Below are positions 19,168 through 63,675 of a stretch of DNA of 64,000 nt, one piece after another. The DNA lies in contig OZ024742.1 in the NCBI GenBank assembly GCA_964016885.1, positions 4,486,647 through 4,550,646 on the forward strand, given 5' to 3'. The notes beneath the pieces were generated by a model that did not search any database, was not told where the DNA came from, and saw only the letters and a program-made list of their open reading frames with translations. Every line of letters starts with the position of its first letter. Positions within the stretch are counted from its first letter, which is position 1. A program made the translations under genes and the position numbers. The stretch comes from Eledone cirrhosa. Taxonomy: Eukaryota; Mollusca; Cephalopoda; Octopoda; Eledonidae.

Positions 19168-19168
<1 letters not shown>
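18416..19168. repeat. Nested inverted repeats, arms 213 bp and about 74 bp
   Basis: Arm 18483-18695 pairs with 18956-19168 (213 bp each, centre 18825). A second inverted pair, 18416-18489 with 18696-18769, overlaps it. Each short arm contains the small palindrome AAATTAAATTT flanked by ACGAAACG and its complement. The single-copy middle (18770-18955) recurs at 38294-38500. The family is shared with 37912-38760. Non-coding. Confidence 0.9.
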
Positions 19169-20427: not shown

Positions 20428-20975
20428 TCACGAAATTATTTCCCAAGTTAAAGAATAGTCCATATTTTTGCATTTTAAGTTCCATATCAGGTTTGAAAGA
20501 GAAGTTGAAGATTTTTTATCAATTCTTTGGAAAGAGCATTTGTGATTATTCCAGCGACTTTTAAATTCTGTAGAACTTACACCTACATAGTTAAATATAT
20601 TATCACTGGTTTTAACTGTACATTTATAGACCACGTCCTTATCTAAACACTTATTTTGTAAAGGACAGTTTAATTTAAGTCTACAGTTACATTTTGCGGA
20701 GTTGTTCTTATTCAGAACGGTACTATTATGTTGGATATTGCTAGAGATATTACTGCTATTTTGGTTATTTTGGTTAGGGTTTAAATTTCTATTATTGATT
20801 CTATTTATATTTTGTGCTATGTTCATAGTTGTAGAGTAGGATAGTTTTATAGTATGTCTGTTAAAGATTGAGTGGTATATGTGGGCTTTAGGAAAACATT
20901 TATCTAGTGCTTTAAAGAATAGTTTTGCTAAAGGTGTTTTAACGCTTAATGAGAATGGTGGTGATGCCAAATAAT
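20428..20975 (-). pseudogene. Penelope-like element 3' end with GIY-YIG domain
   Basis: The minus-strand frame reads FPKAHIYHSIFNRHTIKLSY (linker after the RT), an Asn-rich spacer, then the Cys cluster CNCRLKLNCPLQNKCLDKDV, VYKCTV, NYVGVSSTEFKSRWNNH (GIY-YIG core with Tyr-Val-Gly and downstream Arg) and a C-terminal NLIWNLK. GIY-YIG nuclease domains after the RT are the hallmark of Penelope-like retroelements. Only the end of the protein is present, so this is a 5'-truncated insertion. Its frame is unbroken over 180 codons, suggesting a fairly recent insertion. The Cys-cluster style is shared with 33815-34276. Confidence 0.8.
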
Positions 20976-21075
20976 ATTTCTAGTTCTATTTCTTCTGTTA
21001 GTTTTAGAGTTTAAGTTAGATTTTTTAGTGTAATTGTGATTAATAGTAGGGTTATTTGCCTTATCACTGTTGTCG

Positions 21076-25387: not shown

Positions 25388-25547
25388 TTTCTTCTTCTTC
25401 TTCTTCTTCTTCTTCTTCTTCTTCTTCTTCTTCTTCTTCTTCTTCTTCTTCTTCTTCTTCTTCTTCTTCTTCTTCTTTATTTATTTATTTTTCTTCCTTT
25501 TCTTCTTTTTCTTTTTTTTATATCTTTTCTTTTTCTTTCTCTTGTTC
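25388..25547. repeat. (TTC)n and polypyrimidine tract
   Basis: About 30 TTC triplets followed by irregular T/C-rich sequence. The minus strand is polypurine and could form triplex DNA. Confidence 0.95.
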
Positions 25548-25763
25548 TTTTTATTTTTATTTTTATTTTTATTTTTATTTTTATTTTTATTTTTATTTTT
25601 ATTTTTATTTTTATTTTTATTTTTATTTTTATTTTTATTTTTATTTTTATTTTTATTTTTATTTTTATTTTTATTTTTATTTTTATTTTTATTTTTATTT
25701 TTATTTTTATTTTTATTTTTATTTTTATTTTTATTTTTATTTTTATTTTTATTTTTATTTTTA

Positions 25764-25794
<31 letters not shown>

Positions 25795-25827
25795 TTTATT
25801 TTTATTTTTATTTTTATTTTTATTTTT
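25547..25827. repeat. (TTTTTA)n hexanucleotide array, about 46 copies
   Basis: Nearly perfect 6-bp repeats with one single-base loss near 25790. On the minus strand it is (TAAAAA)n and lies just downstream of a minus-strand LINE remnant, so it may have grown from a poly(A)-like tail. Open frames (FYFYFY, KIKIKI) are artefacts. Confidence 0.95.
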
Positions 25828-25924
25828 CCTTTTCTTTTTCCTTTCCTTTTTCTTTTTTCTTTTTCTAATTTTTCTTTTAATTTTCTTTTTCTTTCTTTTT
25901 CTTTTTTTCTTTTTCTTCTTCACC

Positions 25925-30648: not shown

Positions 30649-31096
30649 ATATTTATTAATATAACAGATTAAAGTTTAAGCAAAGAATCGCTGCTTTCAC
30701 CCTTAACGGGATCTTCTGAAACTAACAAAGTCAATCTGTAAACGCAGAACTGGATATTTCAAAAAACGTTGCAACCGGAGGAAGACAGGAAGACGATACT
30801 TTGGTTCATGGTGACGTTCGCTGGCAAAGAACGGGAAAAAACGAATAATACGTCATTAATAGGAGCGGTGAAAAACAATTACGCGCAAAGACAGAACCAC
30901 GTTTATGGTATAAAAGAGGTCGTAGATTAATGTTAACGTCACCATGAACCAAAGTATCGTCTTCCTGTCTTCCTCCGGTTGCAACGTTTTTTGAAATATC
31001 CAGTTCTGCGTTTACAGATTGACTTTGTTAGTTTCAGAAGATCCCGTTAAGGGTGAAAGCAGCGATTCTTTGCTTAAACTTTAATCTGTTATATTA

Positions 31097-31104
<8 letters not shown>
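30649..31104. repeat. Inverted repeat, arms 170 bp, loop 116 bp
   Basis: 30649-30818 and 30935-31104 are reverse complements (centre 30876.5), with blocks such as TTTCACCCTTAACGGGATCT and GGAAGACAGGAAGACGATAC. The loop (30819-30934) has no coding capacity. The outer ends abut TA-rich DNA on both sides. Foldback-type MITE. Confidence 0.95.
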
Positions 31105-31580: not shown

Positions 31581-31960
31581 TCGGGACAGGCAAGGCAGAT
31601 TACAACCCCCTGCCCACGTAGCAGTAATTCTGGCGACAGAATTAAGGTGAGAGACAGCTGAATGGAAATAGACAGTGGGCAGTTTTGAATGGTCAAACAT
31701 ACAGATGATGACTCGAACTCTTGACCAATGGATGGGCCACGTAAACAGGATGATGACAGATGGAGGAAACTCAAAGGGACAGAATACATCAGACAGAAGA
31801 TTTGCTTCGAAGTAACTAGACGTATCTGAGGAACTTGCGAATCCAGAGTGAGGTTCGATCCACGAATAGATCGCACCTCGAACTGTTCGCCGGAGAAACA
31901 ATTCTAGTACGTTAATACATTGTGTTTCGATGCATCACTGATTTTTCGTTTTCTATATTA
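31581..31960. other. Unassigned stretch
   Basis: Moderate GC. GACTCGAACTCTTGACCAAT at about 31712 could be a reverse-complement B box, but no other SINE block accompanies it. Confidence 0.4.
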
Positions 31961-31967
31961 TTATTAT

Positions 31968-32166
31968 TTGGATTAGCAGTATCGGTAGAGGGTTGGACGC
32001 CATACTTTGAAGCATAGAGTTACTTCCCTTTATGATCTGAGTTCAAATCCCGCCGAGGTTGACTTTGCCTTTCATCCTTACAGGGTCGATAAAATAAAGT
32101 ACCAGTAATGCACTGGAATAATTGCTGGCCTAGTGCCAAAAGTAGAAACAATTATTATTATTATTA
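31968..32166 (+). mobile_element. tRNA-derived SINE with (ATT)n tail
   Basis: The head has GGATTAGCAGTATCGGTAGA, GTCGGACGCCATACT-like sequence and the B box GAGTTCAAATCCCGCCGAG (about 32038-32056). The body TTTCATCCTTACAGGGTCGA, then AATAAAGTACC, ends GCCTAGTGCC, followed by (ATT)n. This is the best-preserved head in the window apart from 63462. Confidence 0.85.
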
Positions 32167-32180
32167 TATATATATATAAT

Positions 32181-32877
32181 AAATGTAATCTGAGTTTTTT
32201 CGGATATTAATAATTGTTTTTATTTTAGGCACAAGGCCAGCAAATTACCCAGTACATTACTGATACTTTATTTTATCGACCCCGTAAGGATGAAAGGCAA
32301 AGTCAACCTCGGCGGGATTTGAACTCAGATCTTAAAGGGACGTAACTATGCTGGAAAGCATGGCGTCCGACCCTCTACCGATACTGCCAAACCTCAATAA
32401 CATTCAATTCGTTTGCAATTTTGCAAACAAGCCTCAATTTTATAGCCATGTCAGTAGAATGAACATTTCATTCTTGCTTTTGTGTTGGCACGCGATCAGG
32501 ACTGCAGACACTAATGTTCTGGGTATCACCCTTCATCAGTACAGCTCACTGTTCACCTGCCAAACTGTCAGGGTAGTGGAAATATATGCTATTTTCAAAA
32601 ATACGCAGTGACTGATCGGCCCGATTTGCATATTAGCGACTGGCAGATCAGTAAGATCTGCATATTAGCAGATCCACTGATCAGCCAGATTTGCATATCA
32701 GCAGACTGGCCAGTCAGTTTCCTGTATAAGAGCGATAAATGGCCGGCTTTGCCAACACATTTAGCAAGAATGAAGTGTTCATTCTACTGACATGGCTATA
32801 AAATTGAGGCTTGTTTGCAAAATTGCAAACCAATTGAATGTTATTATTAATATTCGAAAAAAACTCAGATTACATTT
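32181..32877. repeat. Inverted repeat, left arm split by a SINE
   Basis: The right arm 32751-32877 is the complement of 32397-32489 plus 32181-32212. Joined, the left arm would be continuous with the right-arm order, so the intervening about 185 bp is an insertion. The loop (32490-32750) contains repeats of GATTTGCATAT, AGATCTGCATATTAGCAGAT (a short palindrome) and TGATCAGCC. Non-coding foldback element. Confidence 0.9.
32212..32396 (-). mobile_element. SINE inserted in the foldback left arm
   Basis: On the minus strand it has the head TGGCAGTATCGGTAGAGG, the B box GAGTTCAAATCCCGCCGAGG and the body through GGCCTTGTGCCTAAAAT. It is close in sequence to 31968 but opposite in orientation. AATAA on both sides is a possible short target-site duplication. 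Confidence 0.85.
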
Positions 32878-33814: not shown

Positions 33815-34440
33815 CTACATTACATAATTTACAAAATTCCTGTCCGTGGGATTATGGGGGGGGGGGGGGGGGGCAGCCGCTATTATATCCCATTTAAGGT
33901 GAAATTGTTGGTTATTTTCACGCAGCTGCCAAGCCTTGTCTGCGAGTGTTGTTACATAACGCTGGTTTTCATGTTTTATCGAGTAACGATGTCTATAAAG
34001 GCGTGATTTGAAGGAGGTGGCTGTAGATCCCACATAGTACCACTTCTGTCTATCCGATTCGATAGTACATTTGTATACGATGTTGCGTTCAAGACACTGA
34101 TTGTTCAACGGACACATTCCTGGTTGGGCACAGTTGCAATTATAATTTTGCGTTGTTGTATTGTCATGGATGGGTTGATGAGGTTGCTTAGGTAGGACAG
34201 GATGTTGTTTGTTGTTTTGTGATGTTATAGCTAATGTTTTACGTGTATTGTTATGTGTTGGAAGGCGTTTATACAACCGTTTTGCGTTAAGCTTTTTTAT
34301 ATGTTGTTCAATATTAGGGGCGGTTGAATATGAAAGTCGAATAGTGTTAGGGTTTAAGATTTTATTATATTTATGTGATGTTGGAAAGTGTTTTTAACTA
34401 ATCGAAAGAATTGTGAGGGTAGATTGGTTTTAATAGTGTT
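33815..34440 (-). pseudogene. PLE 3' end with GIY-YIG domain, minus strand
   Basis: From 34440 downward the frames encode a linker with NTIRLSYSTAPNIEQHIK, a frame change near 34270, a polar spacer, CNCAQPGMCPLNNQCLERNI, VYKCTI, YYVGSTATSFKSRLYRH (GIY-YIG core) and FHLKWDII. A run of about 18 G at 33856-33873 encodes a poly-Pro insertion near the C-terminus. The element lacks its RT on this strand. It sits head to head with a plus-strand RT fragment starting at 34510. Confidence 0.8.
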
Positions 34441-37911: not shown

Positions 37912-38220
37912 AATTAAGTTAAAAATGTACATCCACATATGTATACTGAAATACTAGTATGCATATGAATACACACACGTGTACATATGTAGATGTACCG
38001 AGTTTTTCACTGGACACTTTACTGTGAGTGTCCAGCTCCTCGAAAACCAGTATGACTCTAAAAACCGGTTTGTCTGTGTGTTTACATACAGAATAGCTGG
38101 ACACTCACAGTAAAGTGTCCAGTGAAAAACTCGGTACATCTACATATGTACACGTGTGTGTATTCATATGCATACTAGTATTTCAGTATACATATGTGGA
38201 TGTACATTTTTAACTTAATT
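37912..38220. repeat. Inverted repeat, arms 126 bp, loop 57 bp
   Basis: 37912-38037 and 38095-38220 are complements (centre 38066). The arms contain GTACATATGTAGATGTACCG and TGTCCAGTGAAAAACTCGGT. The family is that of 18483-19168; here most of the loop has been deleted, leaving ACCAGTATGACTCTAAAAAC. Confidence 0.9.
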
Positions 38221-38753
38221 GTTTAAGCGTCAGTCATACAAAAGTGAGTTACAAACGAAACGAAATTTAATTTCGTTTCGTTATTTGTTTTTATCGTCTC
38301 CGCTGAACCGGTACGTACTCACGCTCTATGCAAATTAGTCTGCCCACTACTAATTTTCATAGAAAAAGCATATAACGATATGTGCTTTTACGATTCTCTA
38401 GAAAGGCCGGAAGATAGGTAAATATTGCTGATGAGATGTAACAACATCGAAACTAGTCCAATATTCCTTGTCTGGCTTTCTGGAGAATAGAGGAAAGGTG
38501 TTTCCTCGAAAACCAGTATGACTCTAAAAACCGGTTTGTCTGTGTGTTTACATACAGAATAGCTGGACACTCACAGTAAAGTGTCCAGTGAAAAACTCGG
38601 TACATCTACATATGTACACGTGTGTGTATTCATATGCATACTAGTATTTCAGTATACATATGTGGATGTACATTTTTAACTTAATTGTTTAAGCGTCAGT
38701 CATACAAAAGTGAGTTACAAACGAAACGAAATTTAATTTCGTTTCGTTATTTG

Positions 38754-38760
<7 letters not shown>
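38040..38760 (+). repeat. Tandem duplication with 466-bp offset
   Basis: 38041-38294 is repeated at 38507-38760 almost exactly (AAACCAGTATGACTCTAAAA to GTTATTTGTTTTTAT). The second copy then runs into (TA)n instead of the CGTCTCCGCTGAACCGG that follows the first. Confidence 0.9.
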
Positions 38761-40137: not shown

Positions 40138-40764
40138 ATGTTACGAATATACGACGCGTGCAAAAGTATAAAAATACATACATGAGATTTTCATTTAGAA
40201 GCAACGATTTTAAACGACAGACAGATAACGCATTTATTTTTTTTTTTCATGTCCATCCAATTTCTTTCTTTCAAAATAACTGATAGTTTGGTTACGCTGA
40301 TGTTTTTCTCGGAGGCAAGTGTTGCAATGTTTAAATTTTCGATTTTTGTTAATAGATTACCAGAGCAGTTTTTATCCCCAGCATCCTCTTTTGTTTTAAC
40401 ATTCGGGTTATGGTTATGTTTTCATAACTTAATAAGGCTTACTGTTGGTTGAGGGAATATTAATCAAAAGTACCACATTAAAGTCTACACTGTAGACTCT
40501 ACAGTTTTTAAGCCAAGAAAGGAACTTTAGATTGTAACTTTAACACAGCTACTGAGCAGCCCCGAGCAACGCCGGGCTTTACTGTTAATATATGATATAT
40601 TTATTCCCATGAGCTCCGCATACTTTCGCTATCCTAATTGACACACATATGTAATTGTGCAACGTTTCGATCAAACTTGAATCCTCGGAATTTCGATGTA
40701 ACCTTCCTAGCTATTCGTCTTTGCTATCTACATCATAATACTGTTATGTTTCCCATAATAGTTT
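40138..40764. other. Unassigned; contains a CCCGAGCAACGCCGGGC hairpin
   Basis: Mostly unique AT-rich sequence. At about 40560-40578 CCCGAGCAACGCCGGGC forms a short GC hairpin of the kind found at the ends of some Helitron-like and other invertebrate elements. The expected CTRR end was not found, so no call is made. Confidence 0.4.
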
Positions 40765-40975
40765 CTGACTTAGGGACAAGCCCAACAATTTACGGTAAAG
40801 GGAAAGTCGATTAAATCGACACCAGTGAGTTACTGGTACTATTTTATCGAAAGGCAAAGCTAAGCTCGGGGGGTTTTGAACTCAGAATGTCAAGGGCTGT
40901 AACTATATGCCGCGAAGCACGCTGTCCGGCGCTCTCTGCAAGCTTTAGACTTGTCCACTATCAATTAGAATGTTA
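40765..40975 (-). mobile_element. SINE, minus strand
   Basis: The TCTGACTTAGGGACAAGCC end, GTCGATTAAATCGACACCAG, TGGTACTATTTTATCGA, a TTTTGAACTCAGAATG B-box region and CGCGAAGCACGCTGTCCGGC match the family. It retains the TTAAATCGAC palindrome also seen at 63617. Confidence 0.8.
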
Positions 40976-44991: not shown

Positions 44992-47900
44992 ATGGCCAAT
45001 ATAAGAGTTGGATGTGTGAATGTACGCGGCCTGGGGATGCCCTGGAAACAGGGTAAACTCTTAAACGACCTCAGGTCGCACAGCATGGATGTTGTAGCCA
45101 TTTGCGAGTCCAGGATCCACAGCGAGCGACAACTGACCCCCATCTTCGACGATTTTGAGATCTACGCATCTCTCTGTCCGCCGGGAGGTGGGGGCGGGTT
45201 GCCGTTTTGCTGCGGGAACACCTGGACCTCGTAACACAGACGGTACATCTGGACCCGGGGGGTCGACTGGTGGTCCTAGACGTTGACGGTAGTGAAGGTG
45301 GAGCCTTCAGGCTGGTGGCCGCATATGCCCCATCCGGGACACCGAGGCCAGACTTCTCCAAACATCTAGATACTTTTCTGGGAACGTCCCGCTCCCTGCT
45401 GTTAGTGGGGGACTGGAATGGAATCCTAGATGCACGTTGGGACGATGTGGTAACATGTCCCGATAGAAGGGGGTGTAACAGACTCAAACAGTTAATCGGC
45501 CGATTTGACTTGGCCGATAGATATCGACTAGATTTTCCGACTGTGCCACTGTGGACGTGGAGTAATCGTAGCGGAACATATAGATCGTACCTAGATAGGG
45601 TTCTAGTTAGAAATAAGGATAGGAACATGTTAAGCTGTCCACAAATGTTCATGGTTGCCTATTCAGATCACAAATTAGTGATCTGCTTAGTCAACCTTAA
45701 CAAATCCCATAGACAGAGACCCGGCTACTAGAAGCTGAACTTGTCGTTACCGACATGCAAAGCCTACAGTAGACGGATTAGCACTTTAGTTAAGCAGCAC
45801 TTGACGGGGGCCATTGTCAACAACAGATGGTGGTACTCTCACAAGAGGGCAGTTAGATTAGACTCGATAGGTTTTAGTAAAGAATTAGTGTTAGATAGAA
45901 ATAAAACTGAAAAGGAACTGGTAGATAAAGTAGAAAAGGCAACTAGGAGTGGCAACGTAGCCAGCGTGCTAGCGACGAAACGGCCTTGGACCAGTTCTTC
46001 GACGCAAAGCATGAAGGCTGCGTTGTCAGAAGCAAAATACGTGCTCTGGGAAACGAGGGAGCCAAAGCTGTTAGCTGGGCCCGAGTGACGGAGGCGAAAA
46101 GTGGCAACAGTCCACGATTCGGTCTTTGAAGGACCAAGATGGACGCGTGATACGTGAGCCGAAGCAAATGTGCGCGGCCTTTCAGCAGCACTTTACTCAA
46201 CTGTTCGGGCAGGGCGGCGCGCCGGGAGGGGCTATGGATTTCGCTTCATACCTCGACGGCCTACCGCGATTCTCGGACAGCGAGGCGAAGTTCTGCGAAA
46301 GGCCGATTTCGGCCGCTGAGATAGGGGACGCTCTGAGCCAATGCGGCAAACGCAAATCTCCAGATCTCGACGGTCTACCCTACGAATTTTACGTAGCAAG
46401 GACTTGTTCTCCGGTTGTCCTGGAAGCGGTCTACTGCAACTGGCAGCAGAACGGGAGAATTCCCAGTTCTGTGACCAAGAGCGTAAACACGTTAGTCAGG
46501 AAGGACGAGAACAAGGGGGATGACATAGGCAACTTCCGGCCCATACTTCTGCTCAACACAGAGTTACAGTTTTGGCCAAGGTGTTGGCAAAGAGGGTGGC
46601 GTTTGTCGTGGAAAATCTGGTGGGAGAAGCGCAGACATGCGCAATCCCGACCAGGTCTATACACGACAACCTCCACCTCATGCGATACATCATAGAGAGG
46701 GTAGGGTGTAAACCCGGCTTCGGTGGGGCCCTGATCAACTTGGATCAGTCTAAGGCTTTCATTAGGGTTGACCATCGTTACCTGGATGCGGTGATCGAGG
46801 CGGCAGGCTTCGGTCCCGTGTTCAGGGGCAGGATTGCTGCAATGCACAACAGCAACATCTGCTCAAGCGTCAAGGTGAACGGCTACTTCTCGGAGCCGTT
46901 CCATATCACGCGATCCATCCGACAGGGATGCCCTCTCTCCTCACTTCTGTACGTACTGACTCTCAAGCCACTACTGCGGAAGTTGGAGCTATTGCAGGGC
47001 ATCCCTTTGGAACCGGGACTGCGAAAAGCGGCGTCGGCGTAGGCCGACGACGTGACAGTAATGGTGTCGAGCACCTCGCAAATCGGGGAGATCGGAACCT
47101 TAGTGGAGGAATACGAAAGTTTCACAGGAGCGAAGCTGAACCGGGATAAATCCGACGGTTTGCAGCTCGGAACGTGGAGAGGCAAACCGATACCTTCCGA
47201 TGACGTTGTCGGACGCAGGACGGAAGGACCGGTAAAGCTGCTCGGAACGAGGTGACGGCCAAGGTGTTTGCGCTCACCCAGAAGTGGGCCGAGTGCAAAC
47301 TATCCTTGAAAGGTCGCGCGGAGGTGGCGAACACTTTTATAGCGTCCGTCATCTACTACAGCTTGACCGTTGTGCCTTTGTCCAGCCAAAACGCTCACCA
47401 AAATGGAGCGCGCGCTCTTCCAATTCCTTTGAAGAAACGGGCTCCTTTGGTGAGAAGATCCATCTGCTGAAAACAACCTTCAAACGGAGGGCTGGGGATG
47501 CCATGGCTGACGATGCGCAAACACTCGTTCAGGCTGCAGCACCTCCACGTATTCCTCACCAGACACCCGGTGTGGGCCCCGTTCGTGAGGCGAGCCTTCC
47601 CACGACTCGTCTCGCTGACCGAGCTGCAGACCTGGGTTCAAGCAAAGACAGAGGAAAATAGGCGACTGGCACATCGAATATGCTGAGGCGCTGACAGTCC
47701 TCTTGCAAACGGACCCGGCGATCAATGGAGACGCCACTTCGAAATTCTATAGAGGGTTGGTCCGCAGCAAGTGCGACGACACGCTCGGAGAAAATCTAGG
47801 CGTAGAGGAGGACGAACTGGCCAGTCTGTTCGGTAGGACCTTCCGCCCGGGACCATTGGACAACTTCCAAAAGTCCCTGGCCTGGCAGTGCTACCGAGGA

Positions 47901-48000
47901 GCCCTACCAGTTCGAGACAAGCTCTACAGACACGGGCGCCCGGGTAGGGACCCTTCGAAAAAGATCTGTCCGAGATGCGTGAGCGACGAGGAAACCGTCT
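44992..48000 (+). pseudogene. ORF2 (endonuclease and RT) of LINE copy 2
   Basis: It starts at ATG: MANIRVGCVNVRGLG with the catalytic Asn, AICESRIH (Glu), then after a frameshift near 45200 LLLVGDWNGILD (Asp/Asn, about 45410), SYLDRVLVR and YSDHKLVI (about 45660). A TAG at 45729-45731 replaces a Trp. RT boxes: SPDLDGLPYEFY, ALINLDQSKAFIRVDH, GCPLSSLLYVLTLKPLL. The YADD Tyr codon is a TAG at 47040-47042. A further TGA lies at 47468-47470. Frame changes occur near 46090, 46560, 47250 and 47690. It would encode target-primed reverse transcription but is clearly dead. Confidence 0.9.
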
Positions 48001-48111
<111 letters not shown>

Positions 48112-48190
48112 GAGAGTGAGAGAGACAGAGACATGTTTATACTACTTCGCCTCTTCTGGTGTTCATTTTCTCTTTTCCTTAGCTGAATCT

Positions 48191-48535
48191 ATTATATATA
48201 CATCTTATGTTATACATAACTATCATATTATACATACATCTCATATTATACATACATCTTATATTATATATACATCTTATATTATACATACATCTCATCT
48301 TATATATACATCTTATATTATCTATACATCTCATATTATATATACATCTCATATTATGTATACATCTCATATTATACACAGATCTCATATTATATATACA
48401 TCTTATATTATACACACATCTCATATTATACACACATACATACATCTTATATTATACATACATCTTATGTTATACATACATCTCATATTATACATACATC
48501 TTATATTATACATACATCTTATATTGTGTAATTTT
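48191..48535. repeat. 18-bp minisatellite, about 18-19 copies
   Basis: Tandem units of CATCTCATATTATACATA with T/C and A/C variants (CATCTTATATTATATATA); one junction near 48435 has an extra 8 bp. The unit length is a multiple of three, so the translations (HLILYI, TSYIIY) stay open. It lies 50 bp before the 45-bp array but shares no obvious sequence with it. Confidence 0.95.
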
Positions 48536-48587: not shown

Positions 48588-51500
48588 GACAAATATCTCC
48601 TTTCTCTGGATTACTTGGTCTAACGATATTACCAGATATATCTCCTTTCTCTGGGTTACTTGGTCTAACGATATTACCAGATATATCTCCTTTCTCTTGG
48701 TTACTTGCTCTAACGATATTACCAGATATATCTCCTTTCTCTGGGTTACTTGCTCTAACTATATTACCAGATATATCTCCTTTCTCTGGGTTACTTGCTC
48801 TAACGATATCACCAGATATATCTCCTTTCTCTGGGTTACTTGCTCTAACGATATTACCAGATATATCTCCTTTCTCTGGGTTACTTGGTCTAACGATATT
48901 ACCAGATATATCTCCTTTCTCTGGGTTACTTGCTCTAACTATATTACCAGATATATCTCCTTTCTCTGGGTTACTTGGTCTAACTATATTACCAGATATA
49001 TCTCCTTTCTCTGTGTGACTTGCTCTAACGATATTACCAGATATATCTCCTTTCTCTGGGTTACTTGGTCTAACTATATTACCAGATATATCTCCTTTCT
49101 CTGTGTTACTTGCTCTAACGATATTACCAGATATATCTCCTTTCTCTGGGTTACTTGCTCTAACGATATCACCAGATATATCTCCTTTCTCTGGGTTACT
49201 TGCTCTAACGATAGTACCAGATATATCTCCTTTCTCTGGGTTACTTGGTCTAACGATATTACCAGATATATCTCCTTTCTCTGGGTTACTTGCTCTAACT
49301 ATATTACCAGATATATCTCCTTTCTCTGGGTTACTTGGTCTAACTATATTACCAGATATATCTCCTTTCTCTGTGTTACTTGCTCTAACGATATTACCAG
49401 ATATATCTCCTTTCTCTGGGTTACTTGGTCTAACTATATTACCAGATATATCTCCTTTCTCTGTGTTACTTGCTCTAACGATATTACCAGATATATCTCC
49501 TTTTCTCTGGGTTACTTGGTCTAACTATATTACCAGATATATCTCTTTTCTCTGGATTACTTGGTCTAACTATATTACCAGATACATCTCCTTTCTCTGG
49601 GTTACTTGGTCTAACGATATTACCAGATATATCTCCTTTCTCTTGGTTACTTGGTCTAACGATATTACCAGATATATCTCCTTTCTCTGGGTTACTTGGT
49701 CTAACGATATTACCAGATATATCTCCTTTCTCTTGGTTACTTGGTCTAACGATATTACCAGATATATCTCCTTTCTCTGGGTTACTTGGTCTAACTATAT
49801 TACCAGATATATCTCCTTTCTCTGGGTTACTTGGTCTAACTATATTACCAGATATATCTCTTTTCTCTGGGTTACTTGGTCTAACTATATTACCAGATAT
49901 ATCTCCTTTCTCTCGGTTACTTGGTCTAACTATATTACCAGATACATCTCCTTTCTCTCGGTTACTTGGTCTAACTATATTACCAGATACATCTCCTTTC
50001 TCTCGGTTACTTGGTCTAACTATATTACCAGATACATCTCCTTTCTCTGGGTTACTTGGTCTAACTATATTACCAGATACATCTCCTTTCTCTCGGTTAC
50101 TTGGTCTAACTATATTACCAGATACATCTCCTTTCTCTCGGTTACTTGGTCTAACTATATTACCAGATACATCTCCTTTCTCTGGGTTACTTGGTCTAAC
50201 GATATCACCAGATATATCTCCTTTCTCTGGATTACTTGATCTAACGATATTACCAGATATATCTCCTTTCTCTGGGTTACTTGGTCTAACTATATTACCA
50301 GATATATCTCCTTTCTCTGGGTTACTTGGTCTAACTATATTACCAGATATATCTCCTTTCTCTGGGTTACTTGGTCTAACTATATTACCAGATATATCTC
50401 CTTTCTCTGGGTTACTTGCTCTAACGATATTACCAGATATATCTCTTTCTCTGGGTTACTTGGTCTAACTATATTACCAGATATATCTCCTTTCTCTGGG
50501 TTACTTGGTCTAACTATATTACCAGATATATCTCCTTTCTCTCGGTTACTTGGTCTAACTATATTACCAGATATATCTCCTTTCTCTGGGTTACTTGGTC
50601 TAACGATATTACCAGATATATCTCCTTTCTCTGGGTTACTTGGTCTAACGATATCACCAGATATATCTCCTTTCTCTGTGTTACTTGGTCTAACTATATT
50701 ACCTGATACATCTCCTTTCTCTGGGTTACTTGCTCTAACGATATTACCAGATATATCTCCTTTCTCTGGGTTACTTGCTCTAACGATATTACCAGATATA
50801 TCTCCTTTCTCTGTGTTACTTGGTCTAACGATATCACCAGATATATCTCCTTTCTCTGGGTTACTTGGTCTAACTATATTACCAGATATATCTCCTTTCT
50901 CTGGGTTACTTGGTCTAACTATATTACCAGATATATCTCCTTTCTCTGGGTTACTTGGTCTAACGATATTACCAGATATATCTCCTTTCTCTGGGTTACT
51001 TGGTCTAACTATATTACCAGATATATCTCCTTTCTCTGGGTTACTTGCTCTAACGATATTACCAGATATATCTCCTTTCTCTGGGTTACTTGGTCTAACT
51101 ATATTACCAGATATATCTCCTTTCTCTGGGTTACTTGGTCTAACTATATTACCAGATATATCTCCTTTCTCTGGGTTACTTGGTCTAACGATATTACCAG
51201 ATATATCTCCTTTCTCTGGGTTACTTTGTCTAACGATATTACCAGATACATCTCCTTTCTCTGGGTTACTTGGTCTAACTATATTACCAGATACATCTCC
51301 TTTCTCTGGGTTACTTGGTCTAACTATATTACCAGATACACCTCCTTTCTCTGGGTTACTTGGTCTAACTATATTACCAGATATATCTCCTTTCTCTGGG
51401 TTACTTGGTCTAACGATATTACCAGATATATCTCCTTTCTCTGGGTTACTTGGTCTAACTATATTACCAGATATATCTCCTTTCTCTGGGTTACTTGGTC

Positions 51501-54500
51501 TAACTATATTACCAGATATATCTCCTTTCTCTGGGTTACTTGGTCTAACTATATTACCAGATATATCTCCTTTCTCTGGGTTACTTGGTCTAACTATATT
51601 ACCAGATATATCTCCTTTCTCTGGGTTACTTGGTCTAACGATATTACCAGATATATCTCCTTTCTCTTGGTTACTTGCTCTAACGATATTACCAGATATA
51701 TCTCCTTTCTCTGGGTTACTTGGTCTAACTATATTACCAGATATATCTCTTTTCTCTGGGTTACTTGGTCTAACTATATTACCAGATATATCTCCTTTCT
51801 CTCGGTTACTTGGTCTAACGATATTACCAGATATATCTCTTTTCTCTGGGTTACTTTGTCTAACGATATTACCAAATATATCTCCTTTCTCTGGGTTACT
51901 TGGTCTAACTATATTACCAGATATATCTCCTTTCTCTCGGTTACTTGGTCTAACGATATTACCAGATATATCTCTTTTCTCTGGGTTACTTTGTCTAACG
52001 ATATTACCAGATATATCTCCTTTCTCTGTGTTACTTGGTCTAACGATATCACCAGATATATCTCCTTTCTCTGGGTTACTTGGTCTAACTATATCACTAG
52101 ATATATCTCCTTTCTCTGGGTTACTTGGTCTAACGATATTACCAAATATATCTCCTTTCTCTGTGTTACTTGCTCTAACTATATTACCAAATATATCTCT
52201 TTTCTCTGGGTTACTTGCTCTAACTATATTACCAAATATATCTCCTTTCTCTGGGTTACTTGGTCTAACTATATTACCAGATATATCTCCTTTCTCTGGG
52301 TTACTTGGTCTAACTATATTACCAGATATATCTCCTTTCTCTGTGTTACTTGCTCTAACTATATTACCAGATATATCTCCTTTCTCTGGGTTACTTGATC
52401 TAAGTATATTACCAGATATATCTCCTTTCTCTGGGTTACTTGGTCTAACTATATTACCAGATATATCTCCTTTCTCTGGGTTACTTGGTCTAACTATATT
52501 ACCAGATATATCTCCTTTCTCTGGGTTACTTGGTCTAACGATATTACCAGATATATCTCCTTTCTCTGGGTTACTTGGTCTAACTATATTACCAGATATA
52601 TCTCCTTTCTCTGGGTTACTTGCTCTAACGATATTACCAGATATATCTCCTTTCTCTGGGTTACTTGGTCTAACTATATTACCAGATATATCTCCTTTCT
52701 CTGGGTTAGTTGGTCTAACTATATTACCAGATATATCTCCTTTCTCTGGGTTACTTGGTCTAACGATATTACCAGATATATCTCCTTTCTCTGGGTTACT
52801 TTGTCTAACGATATTACCAGATACATCTCCTTTCTCTGGGTTACTTGGTCTAACTATATTACCAGATACATCTCCTTTCTCTGGGTTACTTGGTCTAACT
52901 ATATTACCAGATACACCTCCTTTCTCTGGGTTACTTGGTCTAACTATATTACCAGATATATCTCCTTTCTCTCGGTTACTTGGTCTAACGATATTACCAG
53001 ATATATCTCCTTTCTCTGGGTTACTTGGTCTAACTATATTACCAGATATATCTCTTTTCTCTGGATTACTTGGTCTAACTATATTACCAGATACATCTCC
53101 TTTCTCTGGGTTACTTGGTCTAACGATATTACCAGATATATCTCCTTTCTCTTGGTTACTTGGTCTAACGATATTACCAGATATATCTCCTTTCTCTGGG
53201 TTACTTGGTCTAACGATATTACCAGATATATCTCCTTTCTCTTGGTTACTTGGTCTAACGATATTACCAGATATATCTCCTTTCTCTGGGTTACTTGGTC
53301 TAACTATATTACCAGATATATCTCCTTTCTCTGGGTTACTTGGTCTAACTATATTACCAGATATATCTCTTTTCTCTGGGTTACTTGGTCTAACTATATT
53401 ACCAGATATATCTCCTTTCTCTGGGTTACTTGGTCTAACTATATTACCAGATACATCTCCTTTCTCTCGGTTACTTGGTCTAACTATATTACCAGATACA
53501 TCTCCTTTCTCTCGGTTACTTGGTCTAACTATATTACCAGATACATCTCCTTTCTCTGGGTTACTTGGTCTAACTATATTACCAGATACATCTCCTTTCT
53601 CTCGGTTACTTGGTCTAACTATATTACCAGATACATCTCCTTTCTCTCGGTTACTTGGTCTAACTATATTACCAGATACATCTCCTTTCTCTGGGTTACT
53701 TGGTCTAACGATATCACCAGATATATCTCCTTTCTCTGGATTACTTGATCTAACGATATTACCAGATATATCTCCTTTCTCTGGGTTACTTGGTCTAACT
53801 ATATTACCAGATATATCTACTTTCTCTGGGTTACTTGGTCTAACTATATTACCAGATATATCTCCTTTCTCTGGGTTACTTGGTCTAACTATATTACCAG
53901 ATATATCTCCTTTCTCTGGGTTACTTGCTCTAACGATATTACCAGATATATCTCTTTCTCTGGGTTACTTGGTCTAACTATATTACCAGATATATCTCCT
54001 TTCTCTGGGTTACTTGGTCTAACTATATTACCAGATATATCTCCTTTCTCTGGGTTACTTGGTCTAACTATATTACCAGATATATCTCCTTTCTCTGGGT
54101 TACTTGGTCTAACGATATTACCAGATATATCTCCTTTCTCTGGGTTACTTGGTCTAACGATATCACCAGATATATCTCCTTTCTCTGTGTTACTTGGTCT
54201 AACTATATTACCTGATATATCTCCTTTCTCTGGGTTACTTGCTCTAACGATATTACCACATATATCTCCTTTCTCTGGGTTACTTGCTCTAACGATATTA
54301 CCAGATATATCTCCTTTCTCTGTGTTACTTGGTCTAACGATATCACCAGATATATCTCCTTTCTCTGGGTTACTTGGTCTAACTATATTACCAGATATAT
54401 CTCCTTTCTCTGGGTTACTTGGTCTAACTATATTACCAGATATATCTCCTTTCTCTGGGTTACTTGGTCTAACGATATTACCAGATATATCTCCTTTCTC

Positions 54501-57500
54501 TGGGTTACTTGGTCTAACTATATTACCAGATATATCTCCTTTCTCTGGGTTACTTGGTCTAACTATATTACCAGATATATCTCCTTTCTCTGGGTTACTT
54601 GGTCTAACGATATTACCAGATATATCTCCTTTCTCTGGGTTACTTTGTCTAACGATATTACCAGATACATCTCCTTTCTCTGGGTTACTTGGTCTAACTA
54701 TATTACCAGATACATCTCCTTTCTCTGGGTTACTTGGTCTAACTATATTACCAGATACACCTCCTTTCTCTGGGTTACTTGGTCTAACTATATTACCAGA
54801 TATATCTCCTTTCTCTGGGTTACTTGGTCTAACGATATTACCAGATATATCTCCTTTCTCTGGGTTACTTGGTCTAACTATATTACCAGATATATCTCCT
54901 TTCTCTGGGTTACTTGGTCTAACGATATTACCAGATATATCTCCTTTCTCTGGGTTACTTGGTCTAACTATATTACCAGATATATCTCCTTTCTCTGGGT
55001 TACTTGGTCTAACTATATTACCAGATATATCTCCTTTCTCTGGGTTACTTGGTCTGACGATATTACCAGATATATCTCCTTTCTCTTGGTTACTTGCTCT
55101 AACGATATTACCAGATATATCTCCTTTCTCTGGGTTACTTGGTCTAACTATATTACCAGATATATCTCTTTTCTCTGGGTTACTTGGTCTAACTATATTA
55201 CCAGATATATCTCCTTTCTCTCGGTTACTTGGTCTAACGATATTACCAGATATATCTCTTTTCTCTGGGTTACTTTGTCTAACGATATTACCAAATATAT
55301 CTCCTTTCTCTGGGTTACTTGGTCTAACTATATTACCAGATATATCTCCTTTCTCTCGGTTACTTGGTCTAACGATATTACCAGATATATCTCTTTTCTC
55401 TGGGTTACTTTGTCTAACGATATTACCAGATATATCTCCTTTCTCTGTGTTACTTGGTCTAACGATATCACCAGATATATCTCCTTTCTCTGGGTTACTT
55501 GGTCTAACTATATCACTAGATATATCTCCTTTCTCTGGGTTACTTGGTCTAACGATATTACCAAATATATCTCCTTTCTCTGTGTTACTTGCTCTAACTA
55601 TATTACCAAATATATCTCTTTTCTCTGGGTTACTTGCTCTAACTATATTACCAAATATATCTCCTTTCTCTGGGTTACTTGGTCTAACTATATTACCAGA
55701 TATATCTCCTTTCTCTGGGTTACTTGGTCTAACTATATTACCAGATATATCTCCTTTCTCTGTGTTACTTGCTCTAACTATATTACCAGATATATCTCCT
55801 TTCTCTGGGTTACTTGATCTAAGTATATTACCAGATATATCTCCTTTCTCTGGGTTACTTGGTCTAACTATATTACCAGATATATCTCCTTTCTCTGGGT
55901 TACTTGGTCTAACTATATTACCAGATATATCTCCTTTCTCTGGGTTACTTGGTCTAACGATATTACCAGATATATCTCCTTTCTCTGGGTTACTTGGTCT
56001 AACTATATTACCAGATATATCTCCTTTCTCTGGGTTACTTGCTCTAACGATATTACCAGATATATCTCCTTTCTCTGGGTTACTTGGTCTAACTATATTA
56101 CCAGATATATCTCCTTTCTCTGGGTTACTTGGTCTAACGATATTACCAGATATATCTCCTTTCTCTGGGTTACTTTGTCTAACGATATTACCAGATACAT
56201 CTCCTTTCTCTGGGTTACTTGGTCTAACTATGTTACCAGATACATCTCCTTTCTCTGGGTTACTTGGTCTAACTATATTACCAGATACACCTCCTTTCTC
56301 TGGGTTACTTGGTCTAACTATATTACCAGATATATCTCCTTTCTCTCGGTTACTTGGTCTAACGATATTACCAGATATATCTCCTTTCTCTGGGTTACTT
56401 GGTCTAACTATATTACCAGATATATCTCCTTTCTCTGGGTTACTTGGTCTAACGATATTACCAGATATATCTCCTTTCTCTGGGTTACTTGGTCTAACTA
56501 TATTACCAGATATATCTCCTTTCTCTGGGTTACTTGGTCTAACTATATTACCAGATATATCTCCTTTCTCTGGGTTACTTGGTCTAACGATATTACCAGA
56601 TATATCTCCTTTCTCTTGGTTACTTGCTCTAACGATATTACCAGATATATCTCCTTTCTCTGGGTTACTTGGTCTAACTATATTACCAGATATATCTCTT
56701 TTCTCTGGGTTACTTGGTCTAACTATATTACCAGATATATCTCCTTTCTCTCGGTTACTTGGTCTAACGATATTACCAGATATATCTCTTTTCTCTGGGT
56801 TACTTTGTCTAACGATATTACCAAATATATCTCCTTTCTCTGGGTTACTTGGTCTAACTATATTACCAGATATATCTCCTTTCTCTGGGTTACTTGGTCT
56901 AACGATATTACCAGATATATCTCCTTTCTCTGGGTTACTTGGTCTAACTATATTACCAGATATATCTCCTTTCTCTGGGTTACTTGGTCTAACTATATTA
57001 CCAGATATATCTCCTTTCTCTGGGTTACTTGGTCTAACGATATTACCAGATATATCTCCTTTCTCTTGGTTACTTGCTCTAACGATATTACCAGATATAT
57101 CTCCTTTCTCTGGGTTACTTGGTCTAACTATATTACCAGATATATCTCTTTTCTCTGGGTTACTTGGTCTAACTATATTACCAGATATATCTCCTTTCTC
57201 TCGGTTACTTGGTCTAACGATATTACCAGATATATCTCTTTTCTCTGGGTTACTTTGTCTAACGATATTACCAAATATATCTCCTTTCTCTGGGTTACTT
57301 GGTCTAACTATATTACCAGATATATCTCCTTTCTCTCGGTTACTTGGTCTAACGATATTACCAGATATATCTCTTTTCTCTGGGTTACTTTGTCTAACGA
57401 TATTACCAGATATATCTCCTTTCTCTGTGTTACTTGGTCTAACGATATCACCAGATATATCTCCTTTCTCTGGGTTACTTGGTCTAACTATATCACTAGA

Positions 57501-60500
57501 TATATCTCCTTTCTCTGGGTTACTTGGTCTAACGATATTACCAAATATATCTCCTTTCTCTGTGTTACTTGCTCTAACTATATTACCAAATATATCTCTT
57601 TTCTCTGGGTTACTTGCTCTAACTATATTACCAAATATATCTCCTTTCTCTGGGTTACTTGGTCTAACTATATTACCAGATATATCTCCTTTCTCTGGGT
57701 TACTTGGTCTAACTATATTACCAGATATATCTCCTTTCTCTGTGTTACTTGCTCTAACTATATTACCAGATATATCTCCTTTCTCTGGGTTACTTGATCT
57801 AAGTATATTACCAGATATATCTCCTTTCTCTGGGTTACTTGGTCTAACTATATTACCAGATATATCTCCTTTCTCTGGGTTACTTGGTCTAACTATATTA
57901 CCAGATATATCTCCTTTCTCTGGGTTACTTGGTCTAACGATATTACCAGATATATCTCCTTTCTCTGGGTTACTTGGTCTAACTATATTACCAGATATAT
58001 CTCCTTTCTCTGGGTTACTTGGTCTAACGATATTACCAGATATATCTCCTTTCTCTGGGTTACTTGGTCTAACTATATTACCAGATATATCTCCTTTCTC
58101 TGGGTTACTTGGTCTAACGATATTACCAGATATATCTCCTTTCTCTGGGTTACTTTGTCTAACGATATTACCAGATACATCTCCTTTCTCTGGGTTACTT
58201 GGTCTAACTATATTACCAGATACATCTCCTTTCTCTGGGTTACTTGGTCTAACTATATTACCAGATACACCTCCTTTCTCTGGGTTACTTGGTCTAACTA
58301 TATTACCAGATATATCTCCTTTCTCTCGGTTACTTGGTCTAACGATATTACCAGATATATCTCCTTTCTCTGGGTTACTTGGTCTAACTATATTACCAGA
58401 TATATCTCCTTTCTCTGGGTTACTTGGTCTAACGATATTACCAGATATATCTCCTTTCTCTGGGTTACTTGGTCTAACTATATTACCAGATATATCTCCT
58501 TTCTCTGGGTTACTTGGTCTAACTATATTACCAGATATATCTCATTTCTCTGGGTTACTTGGTCTAACGATATTACCAGATATATCTCCTTTCTCTTGGT
58601 TACTTGCTCTAACGATATTACCAGATATATCTCCTTTCTCTGGGTTACTTGGTCTAACTATATTACCAGATATATCTCTTTTCTCTGGGTTACTTGGTCT
58701 AACTATATTACCAGATATATCTCCTTTCTCTCGGTTACTTGGTCTAACGATATTACCAGATATATCTCTTTTCTCTGGGTTACTTTGTCTAACGATATTA
58801 CCAAATATATCTCCTTTCTCTGGGTTACTTGGTCTAACTATATTACCAGATATATCTCCTTTCTCTGGGTTACTTGGTCTAACGATATTACCAGATATAT
58901 CTCCTTTCTCTGGGTTACTTGGTCTAACTATATTACCAGATATATCTCCTTTCTCTGGGTTACTTGGTCTAACTATATTACCAGATATATCTCCTTTCTC
59001 TGGGTTACTTGGTCTAACGATATTACCAGATATATCTCCTTTCTCTTGGTTACTTGCTCTAACGATATTACCAGATATATCTCCTTTCTCTGGGTTACTT
59101 GGTCTAACTATATTACCAGATATATCTCTTTTCTCTGGGTTACTTTGTCTAACGATATTACCAAATATATCTCCTTTCTCTGGGTTACTTGGTCTAACTA
59201 TATTACCAGATATATCTCCTTTCTCTGGGTTACTTGGTCTAACGATATTACCAGATATATCTCTTTTCTCTGGGTTACTTTGTCTAACGATATTACCAGA
59301 TATATCTCCTTTCTCTGTGTTACTTGGTCTAACGATATCACCAGATATATCTCCTTTCTCTGGGTTACTTGGTCTAACTATATCACTAGATATATCTCCT
59401 TTCTCTGGGTTACTTGGTCTAACGATATTACCAAATATATCTCCTTTCTCTGTGTTACTTGCTCTAACTATATTACCAAATATATCTCTTTTCTCTGGGT
59501 TACTTGCTCTAACTATATTACCAAATATATCTCCTTTCTCTGGGTTACTTGGTCTAACTATATTACCAGATATATCTCCTTTCTCTGGGTTACTTGGTCT
59601 AACTATATTACCAGATATATCTCCTTTCTCTGTGTTACTTGCTCTAACTATATTACCAAATATATCTCCTTTCTCTGGGTTACTTGGTCTAACTATATTA
59701 CCAGATATATCTCCTTTCTCTGGGTTACTTGGTCTAACTATATTACCAGATATATCTCCTTTCTCTGTGTTACTTGCTCTAACTATATTACCAGATATAT
59801 CTCCTTTCTCTGGGTTACTTGATCTAAGTATATTACCAGATATATCTCCTTTCTCTGGGTTACTTGGTCTAACTATATTACCAGATATATCTCCTTTCTC
59901 TGGGTTACTTGGTCTAACTATATTACCAGATATATCTCCTTTCTCTGGGTTACTTGGTCTAACGATATTACCAGATATATCTCCTTTCTCTGGGTTACTT
60001 GGTCTAACTATATTACCAGATATATCTCCTTTCTCTGGGTTACTTGGTCTAACGATATTACCAGATATATCTCCTTTCTCTGGGTTACTTGGTCTAACTA
60101 TATTACCAGATATATCTCCTTTCTCTGGGTTACTTGGTCTAACGATATTACCAGATATATCTCCTTTCTCTGGGTTACTTTGTCTAACGATATTACCAGA
60201 TACATCTCCTTTCTCTGGGTTACTTGGTCTAACTATATTACCAGATACATCTCCTTTCTCTGGGTTACTTGGTCTAACTATATTACCAGATACACCTCCT
60301 TTCTCTGGGTTACTTGGTCTAACTATATTACCAGATATATCTCCTTTCTCTCGGTTACTTGGTCTAACGATATTACCAGATATATCTCCTTTCTCTGGGT
60401 TACTTGGTCTAACTATATTACCAGATATATCTCCTTTCTCTGGGTTACTTGGTCTAACGATATTACCAGATATATCTCCTTTCTCTGGGTTACTTGGTCT

Positions 60501-63258
60501 AACTATATTACCAGATATATCTCCTTTCTCTGGGTTACTTGGTCTAACTATATTACCAGATATATCTCATTTCTCTGGGTTACTTGGTCTAACGATATTA
60601 CCAGATATATCTCCTTTCTCTTGGTTACTTGCTCTAACGATATTACCAGATATATCTCCTTTCTCTGGGTTACTTGGTCTAACTATATTACCAGATATAT
60701 CTCTTTTCTCTGGGTTACTTGGTCTAACTATATTACCAGATATATCTCCTTTCTCTCGGTTACTTGGTCTAACGATATTACCAGATATATCTCTTTTCTC
60801 TGGGTTACTTTGTCTAACGATATTACCAAATATATCTCCTTTCTCTGGGTTACTTGGTCTAACTATATTACCAGATATATCTCCTTTCTCTGGGTTACTT
60901 GGTCTAACGATATTACCAGATATATCTCCTTTCTCTGGGTTACTTGGTCTAACTATATTACCAGATATATCTCCTTTCTCTGGGTTACTTGGTCTAACTA
61001 TATTACCAGATATATCTCCTTTCTCTGGGTTACTTGGTCTAACGATATTACCAGATATATCTCCTTTCTCTTGGTTACTTGCTCTAACGATATTACCAGA
61101 TATATCTCCTTTCTCTGGGTTACTTGGTCTAACTATATTACCAGATATATCTCTTTTCTCTGGGTTACTTTGTCTAACGATATTACCAAATATATCTCCT
61201 TTCTCTGGGTTACTTGGTCTAACTATATTACCAGATATATCTCCTTTCTCTCGGTTACTTGGTCTAACGATATTACCAGATATATCTCTTTTCTCTGGGT
61301 TACTTTGTCTAACGATATTACCAGATATATCTCCTTTCTCTGTGTTACTTGGTCTAACGATATCACCAGATATATCTCCTTTCTCTGGGTTACTTGGTCT
61401 AACTATATCACTAGATATATCTCCTTTCTCTGGGTTACTTGGTCTAACGATATTACCAAATATATCTCCTTTCTCTGTGTTACTTGCTCTAACTATATTA
61501 CCAAATATATCTCTTTTCTCTGGGTTACTTGCTCTAACTATATTACCAAATATATCTCCTTTCTCTGGGTTACTTGGTCTAACTATATTACCAGATATAT
61601 CTCCTTTCTCTGGGTTACTTGGTCTAACTATATTACCAGATATATCTCCTTTCTCTGTGTTACTTGCTCTAACTATATTACCAGATATATCTCCTTTCTC
61701 TGGGTTACTTGATCTAAGTATATTACCAGATATATCTCCTTTCTCTGGGTTACTTGGTCTAACTATATTACCAGATATATCTCCTTTCTCTGGGTTACTT
61801 GGTCTAACTATATTACCAGATATATCTCCTTTCTCTGGGTTACTTGGTCTAACGATATTACCAGATATATCTCCTTTCTCTGGGTTACTTGGTCTAACTA
61901 TATTACCAGATATATCTCCTTTCTCTGGGTTACTTGCTCTAACGATATTACCAGATATATCTCCTTTCTCTGGGTTACTTGGTCTAACTATATTACCAGA
62001 TATATCTCCTTTCTCTGGGTTACTTGGTCTAACGATATTACCAGATATATCTCCTTTCTCTGGGTTACTTTGTCTAACGATATTACCAGATACATCTCCT
62101 TTCTCTGGGTTACTTGGTCTAACTATATTACCAGATACATCTCCTTTCTCTGGGTTACTTGGTCTAACTATATTACCAGATACACCTCCTTTCTCTGGGT
62201 TACTTGGTCTAACTATATTACCAGATATATCTCCTTTCTCTCGGTTACTTGGTCTAACGATATTACCAGATATATCTCCTTTCTCTGGGTTACTTGGTCT
62301 AACTATATTACCAGATATATCTCCTTTCTCTGGGTTACTTGGTCTAACGATATTACCAGATATATCTCCTTTCTCTGGGTTACTTGGTCTAACTATATTA
62401 CCAGATATATCTCCTTTCTCTGGGTTACTTGGTCTAACTATATTACCAGATATATCTCCTTTCTCTGGGTTACTTGGTCTAACGATATTACCAGATATAT
62501 CTCCTTTCTCTTGGTTACTTGCTCTAACGATATTACCAGATATATCTCCTTTCTCTGGGTTACTTGGTCTAACTATATTACCAGATATATCTCTTTTCTC
62601 TGGGTTACTTGGTCTAACTATATTACCAGATATATCTCCCCTCTCTCGGTTACTTGGTCTAACGATATTACCAGATATATCTCTTTTCTCTGGGTTACTT
62701 TGTCTAACGATATTACCAAATATATCTCCTTTCTCTGGGTTACTTGGTCTAACTATATTACCAGATATATCTCCTTTCTCTCGGTTACTTGGTCTAACGA
62801 TATTACCAGATATATCTCTTTTCTCTGGGTTACTTTGTCTAACGATATTACCAGATATATCTCCTTTCTCTGTGTTACTTGGTCTAACGATATCACCAGA
62901 TATATCTCCTTTCTCTGGGTTACTTGGTCTAACTATATCACCAGATATATCTCCTTTCTCTGGGTTACTTGGTCTAACGATATTACCAGATATATCTCCT
63001 TTCTCTGGGTTACTTGGTCTAACTATATTACCAAATATATCTCTTTTCTCTGGGTTACTTGCTCTAACTATATTACCAAATATATCTCCTTTCTCTATGT
63101 TACTTGCTCTAACTATATTACCAGATATATCTCCTTTCTCTGGGTTACTTGATCTAAGGATATTACCAGATATATCTCCTTTCTCTGGGTTACTTGGTCT
63201 AACGATATTACCAAATATATCTCCTTTCTCTGGGTTACTTGCTCTAACGATATCACCA
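48588..63258. repeat. 45-bp satellite array, about 326 units
   Basis: Head-to-tail units of exactly 45 bp: GATATATCTCCTTTCTCTGG, then GTTACTTGGTCTAACGATAT, then TACCA. 14,671 bp divided by 45 is 326.0. Only three single-base indels were seen: +1 near 49501 and -1 near 50446 and 53951. Variation falls on a few positions: ATA/ACA, CCT/CTT, GGG/TGG/CGG/GTG, GGT/GCT/TGT/GAT, ACG/ACT, TTA/TCA and GAT/AAT. Higher-order periods of 34-45 units are visible. Both edges are sharp, with AAATATCTCC at the left and CACCAGAGAC at the right. No transposon ends were seen. Confidence 0.99.
51335..62190. repeat. Higher-order repeat landmarks in the 45-bp array
   Basis: Three consecutive units with ACATCT, ACATCT and ACACCT, the first preceded by TTTGTCTAAC, mark seven positions; GATACACCTCC starts at 51335, 52910, 54754, 56284, 58264, 60289 and 62179. 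Spacings are 1575, 1844, 1530, 1980, 2025 and 1890 bp, or 35, 41 (less 1 nt), 34, 44, 45 and 42 units. The order of other variants between landmarks is also largely conserved. Confidence 0.9.
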
Positions 63259-63387
63259 GAGACTTTATACATGCTATTGGTTAACAAAATATTTTGTTCC
63301 AACTTAACACCAGCTCAATTAACAGTTTGTTACTTCGTTTTCATTATTGCTGTTATTTCGCCTTATTGGTTAGCGTGTTGGGTTTAG
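54187..63387 (+). other. 3,066-codon open frame within the satellite, probably not a gene
   Basis: The frame repeats ISPFSGLLGLTILPD about 200 times and leaves the array to end LACWV at 63387. It begins at GTG; in-frame ATG codons arise only from rare unit variants (about 56229 and 63095). A second plus frame (YISFLWVTWSNDITR) and one minus frame (GNIVRPSNPEKGDIS) are also open over long stretches. Most unit variation changes the amino acid in this frame, and only ACG/ACT is silent. No signal peptide, splice context or promoter is evident. Open because 45 is a multiple of 3 and the unit has no stop in this phase. Confidence 0.15.
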
Positions 63388-63461
63388 AAGAGTTTGAGTT
63401 CGAATCCGGGATCATTTCTGTTCTTTCTTCTTTTTTAGTTTTCTTTATATTATTATTATTT
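63259..63461. other. Unique right flank with a tRNA-like SINE head
   Basis: Unique sequence follows the array. At 63366-63412 GGTTAGCGTGTTGGGTTTAG and the B box GAGTTCGAATCCGGG give an A/B-box pair about 30 bp apart, fitting a truncated tRNA-derived SINE head on the plus strand. Confidence 0.5.
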
Positions 63462-63675
63462 ATGGTGTATTGGCAGTATACGTAGAGGGTCGGACGCCAT
63501 GCTTTGACGCATAGAGTTACGGCCCTTTATGATCTGAGTTCAAATCCCGCCGAGGTTAAATTTGCCTTTCATCCTTACAGAGTCGATAAAATAAAGTACC
63601 AGTCACGCACTGGGTCGATTTAATCGACTTTCCCCTCCCCCCAAATTACTGGCCTTGTGCCTATATAAGAAACCC

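Follow-up and report, generated by a model that had tools for sequence, protein, structure and literature searches.

Nested whole-unit block duplications in a 14.7-kb array of 45-bp units in Eledone cirrhosa

Two kinds of tandemly repeated DNA are the closest described counterparts of the locus reported here: higher-order-repeat satellite DNA, of which primate alpha satellite is an example, and the variant-repeat minisatellites. Passages of one paper on satellites describe that higher-order repeats arise by the joint amplification of adjacent monomers, and that homogenisation tends to be more efficient for the central repeats of an array than for repeats nearer its ends (PMC5615363). The array of Eledone cirrhosa resembles higher-order satellites in that its adjacent units differ from each other by several percent, whereas its multi-unit blocks are 99.8–99.9% identical, and its centre is more homogenised than its ends, in line with the trend given in those passages. 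It is unlike alpha satellite in the length of the unit, which is 45 bp here and about 170 bp there, and in the size of the array, which is only 14.7 kb. The blocks comprise 35–78 units, compared with the 2 to 34 monomers that the same passages give for human alpha satellite (PMC5615363).

With variant-repeat minisatellites the array shares a short unit, strand asymmetry (64% pyrimidine on the plus strand), and variant units that are interspersed along it. Unlike them, it is AT-rich and is built of nested blocks instead of a simple variant mosaic. Interspersed variant units would permit variant-repeat mapping, as in Jeffreys-type minisatellites, and the array is long for a minisatellite. The array belongs to a common type of satellite DNA, and the history of its growth can be read clearly.

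The array was delimited by TRF and unit segmentation in the window, that is, in the whole stretch of 64,000 nucleotides that was analysed:

48593..63260, consensus on the plus strand ATATCTCCTTTCTCTGGGTTACTTGGTCTAACTATATTACCAGAT: 45-bp tandem array, 326 units, 14.7 kb

TRF reported it with a period of 45, 326.0 copies, 95% matches, 0% indels, and a score of 26226. The initial annotation had described about 326 units over 14.7 kb with a 45-bp period, three single-base indels, and substitutions at a handful of positions, and had proposed that the array be checked with a tandem-repeat finder and a tabulation of unit variants. This description was borne out by both. Wrap-around alignment to the cyclic unit consensus recovered three length changes and no others, each of 1 base: one base is inserted at 49501, and one is deleted at 50445 and again at 53954. 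The bounds required adjustment, since the start had been placed at 48588, which is 5 bases early, and the end at 63258, which is 2 bases early.

Among the 326 aligned units, 47 distinct sequences were tabulated, the most frequent of which accounted for 102 units, and the mean pairwise difference between units was 4.9%. The substitutions were concentrated in nine columns of the unit. Column 33 was the most variable (G in 140 of the 326 units), columns 2, 8, 16, 17, 25, 26, 38, and 43 each varied in more than 20 units, and the remaining columns were invariant or varied in fewer than 10. Altogether, 28 distinct substitution alleles were counted, including one at the last base, on the array boundary, and two that are adjacent within one unit. 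The folding of one and two units on both strands was no better than that of shuffled sequences (z from -0.66 to -0.84), and a reading of the unit as structured DNA was therefore dropped. The array consists of head-to-tail units of near-constant length without a coding signal, as is expected of a satellite or minisatellite.

When the array was treated as a string of unit types, it proved to be ordered and not a random mosaic. The unit variants recur in a fixed order in blocks of 35–45 units (about 1.6–2.0 kb). Runs of at least five identical consecutive units formed 65 diagonals, the longest of which extended over 35 units (1,575 bp) at a lag of 45; in 100 shuffles of the unit order, the mean was 1.35 such diagonals, and the longest run never exceeded 6 units. 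This ordered higher-order organisation, absent from the initial annotation, is the main feature of the array. Its edges and blocks are as follows:

48593..49538: left edge, 21 units beyond the large duplicated blocks
49539..53047: copy A of the 78-unit block (3,509 bp)
53048..56556: copy B of the 78-unit block (3,509 bp)
51383..53002: c1, a 36-unit copy of the higher-order repeat, within 78-unit copy A
54802..56376: c2, a 35-unit copy of the higher-order repeat, within 78-unit copy B
56377..58356: c3, a 44-unit copy of the higher-order repeat, with a 10-unit tandem duplication; its first 4 units overlap the end of copy B as drawn
58357..60381: c4, a 45-unit copy of the higher-order repeat
60382..62271: c5, a 42-unit copy of the higher-order repeat
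62272..63260: c6, a partial and diverged copy of 22 units, right edge of the array

Copies A and B of the 78-unit block lie in direct succession. They share 75 paired units, 68 of them identical, with 8 substitutions between them (99.8% identity) and 3 unpaired units on each side. The block of about 35 units is the later part of the 78-unit block and recurs rightward in an expanded form of 42–45 units (c3, c4, and c5). The expansion is due to the 10-unit tandem duplication, which in c3 is seen as units 173–182 being identical to units 183–192; the drawn block boundaries are off by one unit, so that the net gain reads as 9. Further differences among the core copies are gaps of 1–3 whole units, and the core copies are mutually 99.8–99.9% identical. 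The copy at the right edge, c6, is 98.8% identical to c5 over 22 paired units, and 20 units of c5 are left unpaired. Thus, the blocks are more alike than the units are among themselves, which is the property that distinguishes higher-order-repeat satellites.

The two ends of the array differed from its core. Stretches of 360 bp (8 units) were compared with their best match elsewhere, and in the core this match had 0 mismatches at 54% of positions, with a mean of 0.84. At the left edge, the first 14 starting positions had 2–11 mismatches over 360 bp, and at the right edge the last 7 had 4–16; shuffling of the unit order gave a mean of 9.0. Unique units were also concentrated at the ends: 9 of the 15 lay within 14 units of an end, against 1.3 expected, with the cut of 14 units picked after seeing the data. 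A cut-free test gave the same picture, the mean distance of unique units to the nearest end being 48.7 against 81.0 (P = 0.0026). The units with a private point allele (n = 10) showed no significant closeness to the ends (P = 0.17), which suggests that the edge effect is partly due to old variants that were never amplified. The combination of two divergent ends with a homogenised core is as predicted by unequal exchange.

The length constancy of the unit, which had been regarded as remarkable in itself, was reconsidered in the light of the block structure. The deletions at 50445 and 53954 have identical 40-base surroundings, are separated by 3,509 bp (one base short of 78 units), and occupy the same position in the two 78-unit copies. 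Most simply, therefore, they represent one event that was copied by the 78-unit duplication. This leaves two independent indels against the 28 substitution alleles, and the premise of an exceptional constancy holds poorly: the share of indels is low, but in our judgement it is neither striking nor clearly unusual. Each of the two independent indels alters a short homopolymer by a single base (T3 to T4 and C2 to C1) and is slippage-like. Since the copying of the blocks was recent and involved whole units, the constant unit length needs no selection or other special constraint.

These results make it very likely that the locus is a non-coding minisatellite or satellite array that grew by the duplication of blocks of whole units, through unequal exchange or an equivalent process. 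The 45-bp unit would have been amplified first and would then have gathered point mutations. Subsequently, several tandem duplications, always of whole units, copied blocks of some 34 to 78 mutated units, probably through unequal exchange between sister chromatids or homologues whose copies were misaligned. When misaligned arrays undergo unequal exchange, whole units are copied at several scales, as here, and an indel travels with them. Equivalent homology-driven alternatives would be break-induced replication or the reinsertion of a rolling-circle product, and in one assembled haplotype the three processes have the same look. The length of 45 bp would have been kept because copies were made in register and too little time has passed for the blocks to gather many indels. 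The divergence of 0.1–0.2% between blocks implies a duplication that is recent in a relative sense. A sequence-specific function of the array is very improbable.

From the length constancy and the limited, recurring variants, the initial annotation had suggested repeated local gene conversion or unequal exchange rather than slippage. Of these, unequal exchange, or an equivalent homology-based process, agrees with the whole-unit duplications (gaps of 1–3 units and blocks of 10, 35–45, and 78 units) and with the divergent ends. The same whole-unit block duplications and divergent ends argue that slippage was not the main engine of growth. The suggestion of gene conversion fared less well and is weakly indicated. 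In a count made by hand and after seeing the data, about 12 independent substitutions distinguished the core block copies. Half of them (6 of 12) were switches to alleles that recur elsewhere in the same column (columns 2, 16, 26, and 33), and the other six, including one in an unpaired unit, were new alleles. The chance that at least 6 of 12 random mutations would reach a known allele was P = 0.002 with the 17 recurrent alleles of 135 possible ones as the reference set and P = 0.023 with all 28 alleles. These switches are a weak hint that short-tract conversion may occasionally have spread single variants between blocks; mutational hot spots would give the same pattern.

A different explanation of the constant unit length is that 45 bp corresponds to 15 codons and is held by selection for the reading frame of a repeat protein. 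Three frames of the unit are indeed free of stops (two on the plus strand and one on the minus strand), and stop-to-stop frames reach 3,212 aa on the plus strand and 1,550 aa on the minus strand. However, any unit without stops yields long open frames as a matter of course, and the reading frame shifts at 3 sites of the array. Stops interrupt plus frame 1 in unit 9 and the open minus frame in units 221 and 266. The 28 substitution alleles are distributed over the three column phases as 7, 11, and 10. Small excesses of synonymous alleles appeared in several of the six frames but were significant in none, and the lowest value (P = 0.11) belonged to a frame with stops in every unit; the observed and expected numbers were 5 and 7.9 in frame +1, 6 and 5.8 in frame +3, and 7 and 6.2 in the open minus frame. 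Searches for protein relatives gave none at E = 0.001, either with 416 aa from the open minus frame as the query (150 candidates) or with 400 aa from frame +1 (49 candidates). Pfam gave no match for frames +1 and +3, and the names returned for the minus frame (Arg_tRNA_synt_N, PsbH, and FerI) came from weak matches summed over the repeats, with no stretch passing alone. Thus, the maintained open frame and synonymous excess of a protein-coding repeat exon were not found in the array, and with the frame shifts, the stops, and the lack of protein relatives we dropped this explanation as extremely unlikely.

The block structure itself might have been created or multiplied by the assembler, so that the true array would be shorter or differently ordered and the 2.0- and 3.5-kb duplications would be artefacts. 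Almost identical copies, such as those of the core, are where assemblers fail. On the other hand, private substitutions, the 10-unit duplication, and gaps of 1, 2, and 3 units set the block copies apart, and the sequences flanking the array on the left and on the right are different; an artefact is therefore improbable. Two further explanations concern the origin of the array. Its surroundings contain the following features:

45501-47998: LINE remnant left of the array, with a reverse transcriptase match and, just upstream, an endonuclease match
48190..48525: 18-bp tandem array, unit TATTATACATACATCTCA, 18.2 copies, found by TRF
63432..63672, plus strand: SINE-like element near the right end of the array, found by blastn

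The LINE remnant is 78.8% identical to a second copy at 10965-13492. The two copies cease to be similar where a palindrome of the form (TC)n(TA)n(AG)n begins (47998-48131), and the 18-bp array follows it. The SINE-like element appears tRNA-like from its sequence, and its four longest matches in the window are 73.6–88.4% identical (blastn). ARAGORN detected no tRNA genes in the window, and no RNA genes were found there at the Rfam gathering threshold. As parts of a paper on a cuttlefish genome state, decapodiform genomes have almost no SINEs, whereas octopuses expanded theirs (PMC13218726); a SINE content of 1.8% in O. bimaculoides and of only 0.01% in O. minor, also an octopus, is given in another source (PMC6279123). 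The presence of several SINE-like copies within 64 kb would therefore lean towards an octopod genome.

Given these remnants of transposable elements, the array might be the tandem core of a mobile element, for example a Helitron-like or foldback element, that moved here as a unit. Mobile elements with tandem cores are known in molluscs. However, comparison of the 300-base flanks of the array with each other revealed no significant similarity in either direct or inverted orientation (P = 0.63 and 0.77 in shuffling tests), a comparison that very short terminal repeats or target-site duplications would escape; in a scan of the left flank within itself, the 25 pairs listed, of 57, all belonged to the microsatellite palindrome. 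The 45-bp unit likewise had no significant match outside the array: decayed units were absent from the two flanks (P = 0.74 and 0.92), and relatives in the rest of the window did not rise above chance, their score being reached in 23 of 60 shuffles. A mobile origin seems very unlikely. The higher-order structure also resembles centromeric satellites in form, and the array could be one piece of a satellite that is abundant in the centromeres or the heterochromatin of the species. This is unlikely too, since it is only 14.7 kb long and sharply bounded, and lies amid dispersed LINE and SINE-like remnants. Exact unit patterns had 0 matches in bacterial, archaeal, and viral sequence collections, which carry little weight here because they are not animal genomes, and six pieces of 16–24 bases from the unit or the SINE-like element had no match in the papers searched.

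The growth of the array by whole-unit block duplication does not change the general understanding of satellites; its interest is that of a clean natural record of satellite growth. The relative order of the point variants, the two indels, the 10-unit duplication, the blocks of about 2 kb, and the 3.5-kb duplication can be read from one sequence. There is a slight chance that the locus represents a cephalopod satellite family that is spread through the genome and has nested higher-order blocks of 34–78 short units, larger in unit number than the classical alpha-satellite blocks, possibly prone to recombination and differing between individuals. Among the listed titles and beginnings of abstracts from open-access literature, we found no report of higher-order satellite repeats in cephalopods; the locus could therefore serve as a marker with which unequal exchange and conversion may be compared in cephalopod pedigrees.

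Two copies of a non-LTR retrotransposon with RVT_1 were present in the window, 10965-13492 and 45501-47998, and blastn within the window aligned them over 2,545 bp at 78.8% identity. A (TC)n(TA)n(AG)n palindrome marked the end of the latter copy's likeness to the former, and the arms of this palindrome were complementary at 97% over 59 bases and at 92% over 63 bases.

13386-13877, sub-threshold zf-RVT match (Pfam), region of the 10965-13492 copy
45159-45731, Exo_endo_phos match (Pfam), region of the 45501-47998 copy
47998-48131, (TC)n(TA)n(AG)n microsatellite, near-perfect inverted repeat

A scan of the window for open reading frames provided two further frames, which, judging by eye from the motif, we take to resemble the GIY-YIG endonuclease ends of Penelope-like elements; a Pfam search at a cut-off of 0.001 gave no match for either.

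20428-20979 (-), open frame
33815-34393 (-), open frame

Exact duplications were among the matches listed in the window self-comparison, and TRF detected a hexamer array. The two inverted repeats (18483-19168 and 30649-31104) are perhaps foldback or MITE-like.

18483-18696 / 18955-19168, inverted repeat, 214 bp, exact
30649-30818 / 30935-31104, inverted repeat, 170 bp, exact
38037-38294 / 38503-38760, direct repeat, 258 bp, exact
25484-25914, TTTATT hexamer array, ~72 copies

Copies of a SINE-like element were among the matches listed by blastn within the window, with 73.6-88.4% identity to the copy adjoining the right end of the 45-bp satellite array (63432-63672).

1682-1878, SINE-like copy
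31942-32116, SINE-like copy
32247-32390, SINE-like copy
40755-40935, SINE-like copy
63432-63672, SINE-like copy

The presence of these putative SINEs is consistent with an octopus-like genome.
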